Part shown: positions 5,916 to 34,286 of the stretch, piece by piece | Layout of the letters: every line of letters begins with the position of its first letter | Numbering within the stretch: position 1 is the stretch's first letter | DNA from: Fluviispira vulneris | GTDB taxonomy: Bacteria > Bdellovibrionota_B > Oligoflexia > Silvanigrellales > Silvanigrellaceae | Length of the DNA stretch: 64,000 nucleotides | Assembly: GCF_014281055.1 (NCBI RefSeq) | Contig: NZ_JACRSE010000005.1 | Location: 1 to 64,000, forward strand | Reading direction: 5' to 3' | Notes under the pieces: model-generated | What the model saw: only the letters and a program-made list of their open reading frames with translations | Databases searched by the model: none | What the model was told of the DNA's origin: nothing | Translations under genes and position numbers: made by a program

Positions 5916-6032
5916 TCTCGCAAATTCCTCATTAAAAAAGTCAATCCAAATAAATATAAGGCATTTCTTGCCGCATTAACTATTTAACTGATGCTCCGAT
6001 CAAATATGAAGCAATAAAAGAGCCCCAGCAAA

Positions 6033-6069
6033 GGAATCTTTTATTCCAAAGAAACAAGAAGTTTCTTTG
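6033..6069 (+). promoter_or_regulatory. two adjacent hairpins in the leader of the gene at 6092
   Basis: GGAAT (6033-6037) pairs with ATTCC (6043-6047), and CAAAGAAAC (6047-6055) pairs perfectly with GTTTCTTTG (6061-6069) around an AAGAA loop. The second stem is 9 bp and ends 7 bases before the CAGGAGG ribosome-binding site. There is no T-run, so it is not a normal terminator; an RNA control element or mRNA stability hairpin is possible. Confidence 0.4.
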
Positions 6070-6091
6070 TATATGCCAGGAGGCAATTATT

Positions 6092-6421
6092 ATGATCTTT
6101 TTTACTTTACAAAAAAAGTTGCGTGAACTTGTGACTTCAAATTGCACTTTATTGTGGCTTGAAGGAGCGAAGCATGAAAGAGTTCTGAAAATTAAATTAA
6201 CAGGAAACAAGGTAATTTTAAACTTAGCAAACGAAACAACACGCGTAATAGCTTTCGAGCGCTATGCGTGTACTTCAGTCGGATTACAATTTTGGTTTCA
6301 AGGAAAAGCTGGAGTTTTATATAAATGGGAACAAGTGCCAAAATCAGGCGGATTTGACAGCATACAAAAGGAACAAAATTTACCGGATGATGAACCTCCA
6401 CCGCCCAATGTTGCAGCTTAA
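6092..6421 (+). CDS. hypothetical small protein
   Basis: 109 residues with a very good CAGGAGG site 9 bases before the ATG. The first 70 residues look like a compact, mainly beta domain, and the last 25 are acidic and Pro-rich (PDDEPPPPN). No signal peptide or membrane segment. I do not recognise the family. It is encoded 32 bases before the SpoIIE-type phosphatase gene and probably shares its transcript, so it may be an accessory of that protein. The antisense frames at this locus are regarded as shadows. Confidence 0.6.
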   Translation: MIFFTLQKKLRELVTSNCTLLWLEGAKHERVLKIKLTGNKVILNLANETTRVIAFERYACTSVGLQFWFQGKAGVLYKWEQVPKSGGFDSIQKEQNLPDDEPPPPNVAA

Positions 6422-6453
6422 GTAAAGAAGATATATTAATTTTCGGGGTTTTT

Positions 6454-8466
6454 ATGAGGTTAACTGCAAAAATACTTTCATGGATACTAGGTTCAACATT
6501 AGTAGTCATGCTTACTTTTGCAAGTTTAGCTATTTATATGCTTGAAAAAAATTTGAGAGCAGAAGCATTAAATTCACACAAACTTATTTATACATTATTC
6601 GTTCCTTCAGTTACCCGTTACTTATGGGAATTTGATATATCAGGAATCAGAGAAACTCTTTCAAATATTATCGAAAATAATTATGCTTATAAAATATATA
6701 TATTTGATTCCGATTCATCTCTTGTCACATATTTAGGAAAGGATCCTAAAAGCGAGAAAATATCTAATAATTATGATAAAAACAAAGAAAACGAAATAAA
6801 AGAAATCATCACGCCAGAGAAAAAGAAAAAGTTGGAAAATAAGCTTTTAAAAAGTGAAGAAAGCTTTTTATACCAAGACAATCTCCCAAATGAAACATCG
6901 AGAATTATCGGCAGTATGATTCACCGAAAAAAAGCCAATGCGGAACCAACTGTTATCGGTTATTTTGTGTTAGATTATTCCACTTCAAATATTGCAAATG
7001 CAATTCGTGCCATGATCCGCAATGTCGTATTTCTTGCATTAGCAATTACAGTTATGATCGTGTTTTCTATAGGACTTCTGTTAAGAAAAACTTTAATCAA
7101 TTCCATTTTAAGACTCAGTCAAGCAAGTTTAAATATCTCTCGCGGAAAATTTATAAAAATTCCGGAAAGACTTGGCAGTCGAGATGAGATGAAAGATCTT
7201 GTCAAAAACTTTAATATAATGAGCTCACAAATCGAGGAAAATCAAGATAACCTCAAAAATTTAGCGGAAGAAGGTATGAAAGTTTCCAGTACCTTTTCTA
7301 TTGAAGATCTAGGAAAACAGTTATCAGAATCTCTAGAAAAAATAGCAAAGAGAAAATTAAATACTGAGTTTTATGTTATACATTATTTATTACAATTTAC
7401 ATCGACAGAAGGTTTTCATGAAATATTAAAAGCCGATGAAACAGGTGAGGATAATTTTTTAGCGTTAGATAATATTGAAGATGAACCTCTGGGAAGAAAA
7501 AGATTCTATATCAAAGACAATGGAACAGGAGAAGTCAGTGCAATAATTCAAATTGATGATATTCGCCAGATCTATCAATTCTCCTACAATGCAGCAGAAT
7601 CAGTTTACAGTGCGATCAGAGCTCTCCAGATCAGTGTATCAAATGCGCTTGATAATATCCGATTTATTAAAGAGCAAAAGGAACAACAAAGACTCATTGG
7701 TGAGCAAGAAACAGCTCGGCTTGTACAAAATAATCTTATGCCTAAGTCAGATTTTAGAGTGATAGGTGATTTTGAATTGGCAAATCACTTTGAAGCTGCA
7801 GACAAATGCGCAGGAGATTGGTGGAATTATTATACTTTAACGAATGATAGGTTGTTACTTTTGTTAGGAGATGTGACTGGTCACGGCACAGCGAGTGCTC
7901 TCTTAACGGCAGTTGTAAAAGGGTATTGTGATTCCATTCATACACAACCATTTATAACAACCAAAGCAATCTTATCTCAACTCGACGCAGTCGTACGCAA
8001 TAGTGGAGACGGCAATAAAGTCATGACCATGTTTGCAGCAGTCCTAGATCCTATCAATAAAACTATTGAGTTTTCAAATGCAGCTCATAATTTCCCCATA
8101 ACAATTAAAAAGAAACAAGGAAAAAATACTTTGTCGAAACTCATTGCTCAAGGCAAACCACTCGGCTTTGATATGACACCGACAGCTGAACTGTCATCTC
8201 AGAATTATGAGCAAAGAAATGTAGTACTTGAAAACGGTGATGCATTGATTATATATTCGGATGGATTAATTGAAGCTCTGAATAATTCTGGCGAAGAATT
8301 TAGTGAAAAAAGATTAAAAATGATCATTCTGAATAAAGCAGAAAGTAGTGTAACAGAAATAAAAAATGAAATCATAAAAGAATTCAGAGATTTCACTTTT
8401 CCAAATAAACTTATGGATGATGTTACCTTTATAGTTTGCCGCTTTAAAAAAATAGAAGATGCTTAA
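6454..8466 (+). CDS. membrane sensor SpoIIE/PP2C-type serine phosphatase (RsbU-like)
   Basis: 670 residues. Order: transmembrane segment about residues 8-30, an extracytoplasmic sensor region to about 180, a second membrane segment about 185-210, a HAMP linker, a middle region of possible GAF type, and a SpoIIE-like phosphatase domain from about 415 to the end. Metal-binding and catalytic signatures are visible: DKCAGDWW, GDVTGHG, YSDGLIEA and DDVTF. Family members dephosphorylate STAS-domain antagonists in partner-switching pathways. The STAS-like protein at 2693 is a plausible but unproven substrate. The gene converges on the ABC-F gene with a one-base gap and no terminator between. Confidence 0.9.
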   Translation: MRLTAKILSWILGSTLVVMLTFASLAIYMLEKNLRAEALNSHKLIYTLFVPSVTRYLWEFDISGIRETLSNIIENNYAYKIYIFDSDSSLVTYLGKDPKSEKISNNYDKNKENEIKEIITPEKKKKLENKLLKSEESFLYQDNLPNETSRIIGSMIHRKKANAEPTVIGYFVLDYSTSNIANAIRAMIRNVVFLALAITVMIVFSIGLLLRKTLINSILRLSQASLNISRGKFIKIPERLGSRDEMKDLVKNFNIMSSQIEENQDNLKNLAEEGMKVSSTFSIEDLGKQLSESLEKIAKRKLNTEFYVIHYLLQFTSTEGFHEILKADETGEDNFLALDNIEDEPLGRKRFYIKDNGTGEVSAIIQIDDIRQIYQFSYNAAESVYSAIRALQISVSNALDNIRFIKEQKEQQRLIGEQETARLVQNNLMPKSDFRVIGDFELANHFEAADKCAGDWWNYYTLTNDRLLLLLGDVTGHGTASALLTAVVKGYCDSIHTQPFITTKAILSQLDAVVRNSGDGNKVMTMFAAVLDPINKTIEFSNAAHNFPITIKKKQGKNTLSKLIAQGKPLGFDMTPTAELSSQNYEQRNVVLENGDALIIYSDGLIEALNNSGEEFSEKRLKMIILNKAESSVTEIKNEIIKEFRDFTFPNKLMDDVTFIVCRFKKIEDA

Positions 8467-29792: not shown

Positions 29793-30245
29793 TTACTCAC
29801 CTTCATCAGTCAATTTTTTTTGCAAAGTTTTAATAAACTCAGCATCATAATCTGCTGCTATGACACTGTCGTCAATACCACCATTGGAGATATATTGAAC
29901 GGCAAGTTGAAGAAAGTTTTTCTCTCCTCCATCGTTCAATAATTTTACTGCGTTTGGAAAGACATACCAATTTAAAGTTATTTTCTCTCCTAATAAATTA
30001 AATACTAATGGCAATTCTTCTTCACTGCTTGCAATAAATTCTAGTAAATATTTTGTATTCACATTTTTGTTTATATGCCAATCAAATTTATCATGCCGAA
30101 TTAATTTATTCTTATTAATAATTTCTTTTAAATCATTTTTATCCAACGAGACTTCAACAATTTTATTATCTAACAAAGCAAACATAACTTTGAATGCATT
30201 ATTAGATAATTTTATTTTTGTAAATAAAAGCAATTTAGCTTTCAT
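29793..30245 (-). CDS. hypothetical protein
   Basis: 150 residues from ATG 30245 (AGGGAAA upstream; the GTG at 30260 is less likely). It appears soluble and mixed alpha/beta, with a KMTLN-like hydrophobic beta segment (EKITLNWYVF) and an acidic C-terminus (KLTDEGE). No motif or family recognised. It follows the cystathionine beta-synthase-like gene by 25 bases on the same strand and may be co-transcribed. Confidence 0.55.
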   Translation of the reverse strand: MKAKLLLFTKIKLSNNAFKVMFALLDNKIVEVSLDKNDLKEIINKNKLIRHDKFDWHINKNVNTKYLLEFIASSEEELPLVFNLLGEKITLNWYVFPNAVKLLNDGGEKNFLQLAVQYISNGGIDDSVIAADYDAEFIKTLQKKLTDEGE

Positions 30246-30270
30246 ATTTTCCCTATTCACTTAATAAATT

Positions 30271-31254
30271 TTATTTAGAAAATTTATTATTTGGTAAAAC
30301 CGCTTGCTTAAAATTTAATTTAGACAACCATTCGTTGTCCATCAGTTTTGTCATATAATTACGGATTCCATCGGGCAGAATAACTACAATTTTAGAACCC
30401 TTAGGGACAGTTTCAATTATTGCATTCACACCATATAAGGCTGTTCCTGAACTTCCACCACACAAAAAGCCTTCTTCACGAATGGCTCTACGCGCCCAAA
30501 CAAAACTTGGCTCATCCGTAGTTTTTATCCATTTGTCGATTAGATTGCAATCCAAAACTTTTGGGAAAAAATCATACCCAATTCCTTCAACTTGATAAGT
30601 CCCAACTTCGGTGCCCCCACCTAAGATACTGCCCACAGGATCACAACCAACAATTTGACAAGAAGGTTTTAACTCTTTAAATCTTCTAGCTATTCCGGTA
30701 ATTGTTCCCCCTGTTCCAGCCCCCGCTACTAAATAGTCTGGCACCATACCAAGATCATCAATAATTTCTTGCGCTGTAAATTTATAGTGGGCTTCACAAT
30801 TTGAAGGGTTTGCATACTGATCAAGGACATGCGCATTTGGTAGCTCTTTTGCTAAACGATTTGCTACAGAAATATGGCTTTCTGGCGCGTCATACGCTGC
30901 TTCGGTTGGTGTTCTTATTATTTCTGCTCCTAGAGCCGCAAGCACAACTTGTTTTTCTTTGCTCATTTTCTCAGGCAAGGTAATGATAACTTTATATCCG
31001 AGAACTGCTCCCGCCAACGCAATGCCAATACCCGTGTTCCCACTTGTTGGCTCTATCAAAATATCGCCTGGTTTTATTCTCCCAGAATTTTGCGCATCCA
31101 AAACCATTTGATAACCAATTCTATCTTTAACAGATCCTCCTGGATTTAAAAACTCACATTTTGCATAGACCTCAACCCCATCTTTTTTAAAGAGACGATT
31201 GATTTTTACCAAAGGAGTTCTACCTATTGCTTCAAGAATATTTTTTGTTTGCAT
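30271..31254 (-). CDS. PLP-dependent cystathionine beta-synthase/cysteine synthase
   Basis: 327 residues with the fold-type II signatures: PGGSVKDR with the PLP-binding Lys, EPTSGNTGIGIA, GAGTGGTITG and the C-terminal CGGSSG. The PEKMSKEKQVVL stretch and GCDPVGSIL are closer to cystathionine beta-synthase than to CysK, although there is no C-terminal CBS-pair domain. It uses serine or O-acetylserine and a thiol to build cystathionine or cysteine. ATG 31254 has GGAAGG upstream; the extra 38 residues of the open frame are rejected. It is divergent from the methyltransferase at 31328, 73 bases away. Confidence 0.85.
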   Translation of the reverse strand: MQTKNILEAIGRTPLVKINRLFKKDGVEVYAKCEFLNPGGSVKDRIGYQMVLDAQNSGRIKPGDILIEPTSGNTGIGIALAGAVLGYKVIITLPEKMSKEKQVVLAALGAEIIRTPTEAAYDAPESHISVANRLAKELPNAHVLDQYANPSNCEAHYKFTAQEIIDDLGMVPDYLVAGAGTGGTITGIARRFKELKPSCQIVGCDPVGSILGGGTEVGTYQVEGIGYDFFPKVLDCNLIDKWIKTTDEPSFVWARRAIREEGFLCGGSSGTALYGVNAIIETVPKGSKIVVILPDGIRNYMTKLMDNEWLSKLNFKQAVLPNNKFSK

Positions 31255-31327: not shown

Positions 31328-32626
31328 ATGTCCAAACAAAGCACAAAATACCAAACTACAAAACTCAACTTAGCAAGAGGGCTTCGCTTTCGTATTGGAG
31401 AAGATGGTAATATATATGCATCTATTTCAAGTTCATCGGGTGAATTTTATATCGCACCTGAAGTTTTGACCTTTTTGTGCTTTTTAACAGACAACAACAA
31501 AGTAACAGATATAGATCTCATTCCTAACAAAATAAAGAAACAATATAATAATCTTTTAAATAACATTCCAAACAAAGAAGAATGCAAAGAATTATTAAAT
31601 GATCTTATTGGCGCAGGAGTTGTCATCAGCTCAAATGCAGAGAATTCTCGCCATCTACATGAGGATGGTTTCGGTGACCCTTGGATTCAATGGGCTATGA
31701 TCTCTGATAATATGCGGTCGAACGCATATTTTGCTGCATTAAAGCAAGTTCTTACAAATCATTCTATCGTTCTGGATGTGGGTGCAGGAACAGGTCTTCT
31801 GTCAGCACAAGCATTATCGCTTGGAGCAAAAAAAGTCATTGCTATAGAAGAAACTAAAATAGCAGAAAATATTAAACCTATCTTTACAAAGTTAGGTCTT
31901 GAAACCAGTGCTAAGAATTTTATATTGCACAACACTAATAGTTTTGATGTTGAAATAAATGAACCGATTACAAATGTTGTAAGCGAACTTTTTGGCAATG
32001 ATCCTTTCCAAGAGGGAGTGATTCCCACTCTCAGAGAAATTGGCTCACGCTTTGTTGGCAAACAAATTACATATATTCCAAATAAAGTCTCAGTATTTTT
32101 TAATTTAATTGAATTGAATAATCACCCAGTTTTGCATAGAATCAAAGCATTTAATAAGCTCAAAGCAGATTCCAATAAGATTAATTTTACTGAAAAGTTT
32201 ATGCATGCTGCTGCAAGTAAATTAGATTTAAATTCTATTTCATTTCCGATTGCCTTAAATGCAAATGATTTTAAATATCTGGCAAAAACTTGTGCATTGG
32301 GTGCAACACGTCTAGATCCTCCACCTGTTTATAGTTCAGATTTAACGAAACATCCACTCTATGGAAAAAAAGAAATTATTATTGAAGAAGATTGTGACAA
32401 TATTCTTGCTATTATTTGGTTTAGAGTCCATTTGACTCAGTCAATTACTATTTCATCAAATCCTAAAGAAGAAGATGCTTGTGAACACTGGAGTCCCATT
32501 GCCATACCACTTAAAAAACTTTTAAATAAACAAAATAAAATTGAAATTAAATATCAACTCAGTGAACAAGAAAATCTATTTTGCTGCGATATTTATCACA
32601 ATGAAGAAAAAATAGGATCAAGATGA
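31328..32626 (+). CDS. PRMT-type methyltransferase with PqqD-like N-terminal domain
   Basis: 432 residues. Residues about 18-100 look like a PqqD/RRE winged-helix domain: GLRFRIGEDGNIYASISS, then a YIAPEVLTFL turn, and ELLNDLIGAGVVI. Residues about 118-390 are a class I SAM methyltransferase of the protein-arginine type: DNMRSNAYFAAL, motif I VLDVGAGTGLLS (about 148-159), post-I AIEE, the double-E loop SELFGNDPFQEG with the PRMT E-x8-E spacing (E220, E229), and an EHW loop (387-388) matching the THW loop. PRMTs are uncommon in bacteria; RRE domains bind leader peptides in RiPP systems. Substrate unknown. AAGGG precedes ATG 31328; its last bases overlap the next gene. Confidence 0.7.
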   Translation: MSKQSTKYQTTKLNLARGLRFRIGEDGNIYASISSSSGEFYIAPEVLTFLCFLTDNNKVTDIDLIPNKIKKQYNNLLNNIPNKEECKELLNDLIGAGVVISSNAENSRHLHEDGFGDPWIQWAMISDNMRSNAYFAALKQVLTNHSIVLDVGAGTGLLSAQALSLGAKKVIAIEETKIAENIKPIFTKLGLETSAKNFILHNTNSFDVEINEPITNVVSELFGNDPFQEGVIPTLREIGSRFVGKQITYIPNKVSVFFNLIELNNHPVLHRIKAFNKLKADSNKINFTEKFMHAAASKLDLNSISFPIALNANDFKYLAKTCALGATRLDPPPVYSSDLTKHPLYGKKEIIIEEDCDNILAIIWFRVHLTQSITISSNPKEEDACEHWSPIAIPLKKLLNKQNKIEIKYQLSEQENLFCCDIYHNEEKIGSR

Positions 32627-33972
32627 AACCAGAAAAAGAGCAAAATATTGAAAAGCAAATTAAAAAACACATCTACGGAAAATCTCAATCTGCAATCGTA
32701 ACTTTTCCAACTGGTTTTGGTTCGACTGCTTTGCAAGAAGTCGAAGAAATTTTAAATAATCTTTGGTTTAAACAAAAGTTTAATAGCAAATGTACACTCT
32801 TAAAAAATGAAATTTTAATTGAAAATGTGCATATTTTTGCCTTAAATGAAATTCTCATGCGCAGTCTTTGCCTCACGGATCTTCGTCTTATTTTACTCGA
32901 AGAAAAAGCTGTTGGCAAAGAAGCTTTTGCTAAGCATTGTCAATCCATTGCTTGGGATTATTATTTACAGAAATCAATGTCACTCAAAGTGAAAGTCGAC
33001 TCAGTTGCGAGTAAAGCCTTTCACGAAAGCGGTCTAAAAGAAATTTTAGCAAATATTCTAAAAGACAAATGCCTCGAAATCGTGAGCGGAGAAAACACCA
33101 ACGAAACAACAGCTCTCTATGCGCAGCTGTATAAAGATAAATTAACCGTCAGTTTATCCCTCTGCGGTCAACCTCTGTATAAAAGAGGCTATCGTGGAAC
33201 ATTGAGTGCCAGTGCCCCCTTACGCGAAGATGCGGCTGCCTGCACAATCACAAAAGCATTTCAATTTCTACAGAAACACAAGCAAGATCTCAAAGCTCAG
33301 ACACTCATGCTCCCTTTTTCAGGAACAGGTACTTTTGCCTTCGAATATCTTTTGTCACAGCTTGCACACGCCCCTTGTTTACTTAATAGAGAGTATGCAA
33401 TTCAAAAAATGCCGCTTTTTAGAAAAGAAAATTTTTCATTTCTTCTAAAGAAAGCGAATGAGTTTTCTAAACTAAATCTATTAAACTCACTAGATAATCC
33501 ATTCCATATTCTCAGCATCGACAATGCAAAACAAGCAAACGCTGCATTTCTGGAAAACATTGAAAACTTTAAAAACAAACTCGACAATTCATTGCAGGAA
33601 TTATTTATTAATAGTTTTTATAAAAGTAACAGTTCCAACGAAAAAATATTGTGTGAAAACTTCTTAAAATTAAACATCGATGAGCTTTTGCAAAATGCAA
33701 ATTTTGGGAATGTCTTTCTTCCACTCAATCCCCCATACGGAATCCGCTTAAATGACAAAGGAAACTCAACGGTTTTCTACGCAAATGTAGGCAAAAAAGT
33801 TTCCGAAATTCGAGCAAAATTAAAAAATAATAACTCACATTTATTTGGCTTTATACTTTGTCCGAGTGAAGATTCCTGGTCCGCTTTTTGTAAATGCATG
33901 CGTGGAGCAGAACTCGAAACTTATCATTTTACCCAAGGTGGTATGGATATACGTGTGTGTATGTTTGTTTAA
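32623..33972 (+). CDS. RlmL-like rRNA guanine-N2 methyltransferase
   Basis: 449 residues. The N-terminal 130 or so residues suit a THUMP RNA-binding domain, and the C-terminal part is the UPF0020-type SAM methyltransferase with GQPLYKRGYRG, LMLPFSGTGTFAFEYL (motif I region) and the NPPYG catalytic motif. Members make m2G in 23S rRNA (RlmL/RlmK) or related sites. The last third has an acidic, Asn/Lys-rich linker. ATGA overlap with the PRMT-type gene shows translational coupling, so both may act on the translation machinery. Confidence 0.85.
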   Translation: MKPEKEQNIEKQIKKHIYGKSQSAIVTFPTGFGSTALQEVEEILNNLWFKQKFNSKCTLLKNEILIENVHIFALNEILMRSLCLTDLRLILLEEKAVGKEAFAKHCQSIAWDYYLQKSMSLKVKVDSVASKAFHESGLKEILANILKDKCLEIVSGENTNETTALYAQLYKDKLTVSLSLCGQPLYKRGYRGTLSASAPLREDAAACTITKAFQFLQKHKQDLKAQTLMLPFSGTGTFAFEYLLSQLAHAPCLLNREYAIQKMPLFRKENFSFLLKKANEFSKLNLLNSLDNPFHILSIDNAKQANAAFLENIENFKNKLDNSLQELFINSFYKSNSSNEKILCENFLKLNIDELLQNANFGNVFLPLNPPYGIRLNDKGNSTVFYANVGKKVSEIRAKLKNNNSHLFGFILCPSEDSWSAFCKCMRGAELETYHFTQGGMDIRVCMFV

Positions 33973-34039
33973 ATGATAAAATTTAATTAAATAAATTTAT
34001 TTTTCATATTTTCAAAATTTTCTTGATCTGTTTTTTTGA

Positions 34040-34138
34040 TTACAATTCATCGTCTTCAGTAGCGCCCCATTCAGTTAGAACAGTATTCGTTAATGGCAAG
34101 TACCATTGAAAATCAGGGTCATTTTCGTTACTAAACAT
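34040..34138 (-). CDS. short acidic peptide gene (32 codons)
   Basis: Too short for a normal ORF screen. The coding strand has TGGAGAT four bases before an ATG, then 32 codons to TAA. The peptide is acidic, with no Arg, Lys or Cys, has two Trp and one Tyr, and ends in a run of Glu/Asp. In-frame ATGs a few codons earlier could extend it by five or six residues but would overlap the ribosome-binding site. It lies between the convergent rRNA methyltransferase gene and the divergent glycosylase gene. It could be a real small protein or a peptide substrate for a nearby enzyme; no function is known. Confidence 0.5.
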   Translation of the reverse strand: MFSNENDPDFQWYLPLTNTVLTEWGATEDDEL

Positions 34139-34286
34139 TTTAATCTCCATCATAATGTTCAGCTAAGAATTAAAACAGCTTTGCTATTTACTCAAGCATT
34201 TATTACAGTAAACTTTGCTTTTACAAAAAGCGTTCTGCAATAAATGTGCTTTTATATTTTTTTATCTCATTGAGAGTGACTTTAAT

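Follow-up and report, generated by a model that had tools for sequence, protein, structure and literature searches.

The window, i.e., the whole stretch of 64,000 nucleotides that was analysed, encodes a protein in which an N-terminal PqqD/RRE-like domain is joined to a methyltransferase of the protein arginine methyltransferase (PRMT) type, an architecture that is real and uncommon. In view of its architecture, residue conservation, distribution, synteny and cluster context, we consider it rather probable that this fusion represents a family of RRE-guided arginine methyltransferases, which would act as a housekeeping enzyme in the Silvanigrellales and as a probable tailoring enzyme of lasso peptides in myxobacteria. 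The host genome comprises 3.6 Mb in 9 contigs, and a search of plasmids gave no match to the fusion.

The fusion protein and its two domains

Close relatives of the fusion protein have the same MSKQ N-terminus, and the genome belongs to the Fluviispira/Silvanigrella/Spirobacillus group, judging from named relatives at 78% and 53% protein identity. The two-domain architecture claimed in the earlier note was confirmed, for the PRMT part by sequence and predicted fold and for the N-terminal domain at the level of profiles. The features of the locus are collected in Table 1.

Table 1. Features of the fusion locus, in positions of the window
Feature	Position	Strand	Details
PqqD/RRE-like domain + PRMT-type methyltransferase fusion	31328..32626	+	432 aa, ATG start
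N-terminal PqqD/RRE-like domain (residues ~13-101)	31364..31630	+	AlphaFold2 of the domain alone; hhalign to PqqD profile
PRMT catalytic Rossmann domain + beta-barrel (residues ~115-432)	31670..32623	+	Foldseek against PDB, PDB profile search
Double-E loop, Glu220 to Glu229	31985..32014	+	invariant in 14/14 order members
HW of THW-loop equivalent (His387-Trp388)	32486..32491	+	invariant in 14/14 order members
THUMP/NPPY RNA methyltransferase, diverged RlmL paralogue	32623..33972	+	NCBIfam RlmKL 1.5e-23; coupled via ATGA
Cystathionine beta-synthase/cysteine synthase-like PLP enzyme	30271..31254	-	Pfam PALP 1.9e-74; divergent gene, kept next to the fusion in most order members
Conserved ~150-aa protein	29793..30260	-	linked in 13/14 loci, most constant fusion neighbour across the order
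Last ~12 codons of deleted probable toxin gene downstream of the antitoxin	33987..34025	-	DNA alignment to L018, which has an intact 110-aa ORF
PrlF/MazE-type antitoxin remnant (the "32-codon gene")	34040..34153	-	in-frame internal deletion of ~132 bases (DNA alignment to F. multicolorata)

The likeness of the catalytic part to PRMTs is far above chance. The single-sequence search of solved structures returned PRMT7 at 5e-12, and a family profile of 13 sequences matched the same protein at 1e-30, followed by PRMT4, 9, 8, 6 and 1. An AlphaFold2 model with a mean pLDDT of 84, for which the window protein was combined with ten relatives, superposes on PRMT structures, including PRMT1, with a Foldseek E-value against PDB of 1.9e-19 and a TM-score of up to 0.80 by target length, so that the structural comparison proposed for this part found the PRMT fold of Rossmann domain and beta-barrel. 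The double-E loop and the EHW motif lie at the positions given previously, with the exact E-x8-E spacing of Glu220 and Glu229 within SELFGNDPFQEG and the EHW at residues 386-388. Besides both glutamates, His387 and Trp388, the residues Met124, Asp127, Arg130 and Asp150 are invariant in the 14 Silvanigrellales members, and from what is generally known of PRMT1 we take this set to represent the SAM-binding, double-E and His-Asp dyad positions. We infer that the fusion would be an active arginine methyltransferase.

The N-terminal domain modelled alone by AlphaFold2 has predicted strands at residues 20-23, 29-32 and 40-42, followed by helices at 44-54, 62-78 and 83-95, which fits the order of three strands and then three helices required of an RRE in the passages of a 2025 study (PMC12710340). 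When the domains of Silvanigrellales and Myxococcota were combined in one profile, hhalign matched them to PqqD proteins with a probability of 94.7% (E 6e-8, 82 columns), as against 32.6% for MarR, at most 0.5% for 30 column-shuffled profiles and 0.4% for the reversed profile; the Silvanigrellales domains by themselves reached 48%. No fusion protein that was scanned passed the cut-off of Pfam PqqD (PF05402). The earlier expectation that residues ~1-100 should match PqqD/RRE structures held for the strand and helix order and for the PqqD profile. In Foldseek the domain alone gave nothing significant (best E 0.48), and the RRE proteins TbiB1 (E 0.58) and a lasso B1 appeared as weak matches amid WW-domain ones. 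We speak of a PqqD/RRE-like domain rather than of a proven RRE.

An unlikely alternative is that the catalysis is that of an ordinary PRMT and the N-terminal domain is a winged helix for DNA or RNA binding or for dimerisation instead of a peptide-binding RRE. Such a shape is common to RREs, and both the weak Foldseek signal and the score of the MarR profile would suit it; however, the strand-strand-strand-helix-helix-helix order, the much stronger match to PqqD and the lasso context of the relatives described below argue for the PqqD/RRE-like assignment.

A core gene of the Silvanigrellales

The fusion gene is present as a single copy in 14 of the 15 Silvanigrellales genomes, and the sole genome without it is 72% complete. 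None was detected in the remaining 43 genomes of the class that were searched, the profile search included. The match in this incomplete genome (G013) was rejected as an RsmD-like protein. A match in the Phycisphaerales (L041) was likewise set aside, since it covers 29 residues only and no PRMT reading frame is among the ORFs listed there.

The neighbourhood is conserved as well: the CBS-like enzyme is linked to the fusion in 12 of the 14 loci, and the still more constant ~150-aa protein has no significant Pfam match. The RlmL-like gene downstream overlaps the fusion by the four bases ATGA; it is directly linked in 10 of the 14 loci, with one more case inferred across a contig break, and is unlinked or absent in three genomes (G001, G002, G004). 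Its product shares the THUMP and NPPY(G) motifs with RlmL/RlmKL, the enzyme of 23S rRNA m2G2445, but differs in being a diverged second copy: since another gene of RlmL type, with the customary motifs, sits elsewhere in the genome (L119, 5633-7072), the coupled copy is a paralogue and was rejected as the canonical RlmL. The tight coupling pointed out in the earlier note is therefore real as regards the ATGA overlap. Because it is not universal and joins the fusion to a paralogue of the rRNA enzyme, the ribosomal protein proposed there as a target of the fusion is a guess.

The fact that most of the order couples the fusion to a THUMP RNA methyltransferase, together with the Rossmann domain being scored as PrmA/RsmD-like by Pfam, would also suit a protein with a PRMT-like fold that is no arginine enzyme and serves as an rRNA, tRNA or small-molecule methyltransferase, or as a partner of the RlmL paralogue in RNA methylation. 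We hold this to be improbable in about the same measure as the winged-helix alternative, because the double-E loop, the HW and the PRMT pre-motif are intact and the PRMT beta-barrel is present, and some genomes have kept the fusion but lost the coupling. RNA methyltransferases, to our knowledge, lack the double-E loop, the HW and the PRMT pre-motif.

Predicted lasso-peptide clusters of the Myxococcota and the window locus

Matches to the PRMT core at E 1e-10 or better were found in 56 of 284 Myxococcota genomes, and the N-terminal domain was present in 28 of the 83 ORFs read from the first of these loci, some of the 28 having been used to train the model. In a FastTree phylogeny of 118 cores with midpoint root, the Silvanigrellales appear together, near the lasso-linked group that carries the N-terminal domain. 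About 11 fusion loci lie in or beside predicted lasso clusters with homologues of B1, B2, C or K, and their precursors have leaders of the YxxPxLxxxG type and cores in which residue 8 or 9 is Asp or Glu. The lasso gene set is complete in L091 and L097 and partial in the others; lasso genes also occur at L270, L271, L273, L275, L277, L278, L279 and L282, in the fetched stretches and in some cases several kilobases off.

The complete predicted cluster of L091 (4977-11000) contains a PqqD-type B1, a B2-like protease, an asparagine-synthase C, a precursor in which a leader ending in YEKPVLVVHGTVAELTQ is followed by the Arg-rich core AGGRRRRDGLLTRAPS, the RRE-PRMT fusion, an HPr-kinase-like protein and a nucleotidyltransferase. 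The related (sister) core AGGVRRRDGINTRAPS directly precedes the fusion in L190, and L097 has the precursor YEPPRVTDLGRVTDLTRGNDGPGGPEGRSGVSGG and two tandem copies of the fusion. The first of these (6010-7239) is a degenerate copy that lacks the double-E loop and is perhaps a non-catalytic subunit; all other readable lasso-linked copies with the N-terminal domain keep the second glutamate, which was read directly in L091, L190, L097 (second copy), L270, L271, L273, L275, L277, L278 and L282, and from the motif TEMIGDDPLDE in L279. Each of the 10 cores found at loci with such copies contains at least one arginine, the L279 core being ambiguous because its precursor adjoins a copy without the N-terminal domain. 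The arginine in every core is at most suggestive of an arginine target.

A second lasso-linked clade of PRMT-like proteins has no N-terminal domain (L202, L219, L285 and the second copies in L278, L279 and L282). The copies with a readable loop (L202, L219, L285 and the second copy of L278) miss the second glutamate, and no HW was found in them; the motif search in the second copies of L279 and L282 returned nothing. Met is the last residue of the cores at L202, L219 and L285 and of the ambiguous one at L279; arginine is absent from those of L219 and L285 and occurs once in that of L202. This clade probably carries out a different methylation. L090 (966-2837) joins a PRMT-like core and a decarboxylase-like PLP region in one open frame, a possible natural fusion.

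The RiPP use of the fusion suggested in the earlier note does not apply to the window locus but, since the same fusion occurs within lasso clusters of the Myxococcota, is likely outside the window. The locus is no RiPP cluster: there are no RiPP enzymes near the fusion, whose neighbours are the CBS-like and RlmL-like genes, a DNA glycosylase and a sugar transferase, and the vicinity has no precursor peptide gene besides the antitoxin remnant. It could still be imagined that the fusion tailors a RiPP in this organism as well, the precursor being encoded elsewhere in the genome, as the myxobacterial clusters of the same architecture might suggest; this is quite improbable, given that the gene belongs to the core of the whole order with conserved non-RiPP neighbours, that no PqqD/B1 match was found elsewhere in this genome, and that the peptide nearby is a remnant of an antitoxin.

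That peptide had been put forward as a possible RiPP partner. The frame, about 1.4 kb from the fusion, is present as described: it contains no arginine and runs to 37 codons when read from the first ATG, or to 32 when a later one is taken. It is, however, a deletion remnant with no standing as an independent gene, and by DNA alignment it was rejected as a RiPP precursor. At the same place Fluviispira multicolorata has an intact 81-aa protein (Pfam PrlF antitoxin 7e-5, MazE 0.004, both below the curated cut-offs), after which comes the 110-aa ORF that resembles, by eye, a PemK/MazF-type toxin. Aligned with this DNA, the window shows an in-frame loss of ~132 bases within the antitoxin, and of the gene that follows it almost everything is gone; judged by the alignment, positions 33987-34153 are a decayed toxin-antitoxin pair, and the good ribosome-binding site of the short frame is that of the ancestral antitoxin. 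The survey of neighbourhoods did not show this gene as a conserved partner of the fusion, the antitoxin gene occurring at this place in 1 of the 13 other loci of the order (F. multicolorata), and the doubt already voiced about an Arg-free peptide as an arginine-methylation substrate was upheld, the peptide being a decayed antitoxin. That the frame encodes a real small peptide modified by the fusion enzyme has, despite its ATG and ribosome-binding site, a next to negligible chance, as the site is inherited, the alignment shows the internal deletion and the loss of the toxin, arginine is absent and the synteny contradicts it.

Proposed mechanism and known systems

Catalysis on arginine, dimerisation, substrate capture through the N-terminal domain and the identity of the substrate are what we infer for the fusion family. 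The N-terminal domain would capture a peptide segment of the substrate and present it to the catalytic core, which would probably dimerise through the beta-barrel arm as in PRMTs. Methyl groups of SAM would pass to an arginine whose guanidinium is held by Glu220 and Glu229, with Asp127 and His387 as the conserved dyad in catalysis. Since the gene belongs to the core of the order, in single copy, and its translation is mostly coupled to that of the diverged RlmL-like RNA methyltransferase, a cellular protein is the most likely target in the Silvanigrellales, possibly one that belongs to the translation machinery, rather than a natural product. In the Myxococcota the same architecture appears to have been recruited to lasso clusters, with an arginine in the precursor core as the likely target. 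A plausible, still tentative reading is that the RRE-PRMT fusions constitute a distinct bacterial enzyme family, the myxobacterial branch of which would produce N-methylarginine in lasso peptides, while the Silvanigrellales branch would be a core enzyme that picks a cellular protein target via its RRE domain.

PRMTs have been described mostly in eukaryotes, and we know of few bacterial ones with known jobs. The fusion shares with PRMT1/3/6/7/9 the Rossmann core, the pre-motif M..D..R, the double-E and HW loops and the beta-barrel, but it is bacterial and has the PqqD/RRE-like domain in place of the eukaryotic accessory domains. It resembles the PqqD and RRE proteins (lasso B1, e.g., TbiB1) in the strand and helix order and in profile similarity; unlike them, its N-terminal domain is fused to a PRMT, stays below the Pfam threshold and in the Silvanigrellales lies outside a RiPP cluster.

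StspM and LihM are likewise SAM enzymes of lasso clusters but, according to passages of PMC8498205 and PMC13352647, modify other residues, StspM methylating the C-terminal carboxyl of the lasso peptide and LihM an aspartate towards aspartimide. The modifications of lasso and interlocked peptides named in passages of these 2021 and 2026 reviews comprise C-terminal methylation, phosphorylation, nucleotidyltransferase-linked glycosylation, deimination, aspartimide formation and others, and those passages make no mention of arginine methylation or of an RRE-PRMT fusion. The literature search for an arginine methyltransferase combined with PqqD or a RiPP recognition element found none, nor was N-methylarginine found as a lasso modification in the searchable literature.

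Through its myxobacterial branch, the family lends itself to a test of the RRE reading. If true, an RRE-addressed enzyme family would open a way to bacterial arginine methylation that can be put to a direct test, arginine-methylated lasso peptides would be predicted from the precursor cores named above, and a guide domain of RiPP type would be at work in a housekeeping setting.
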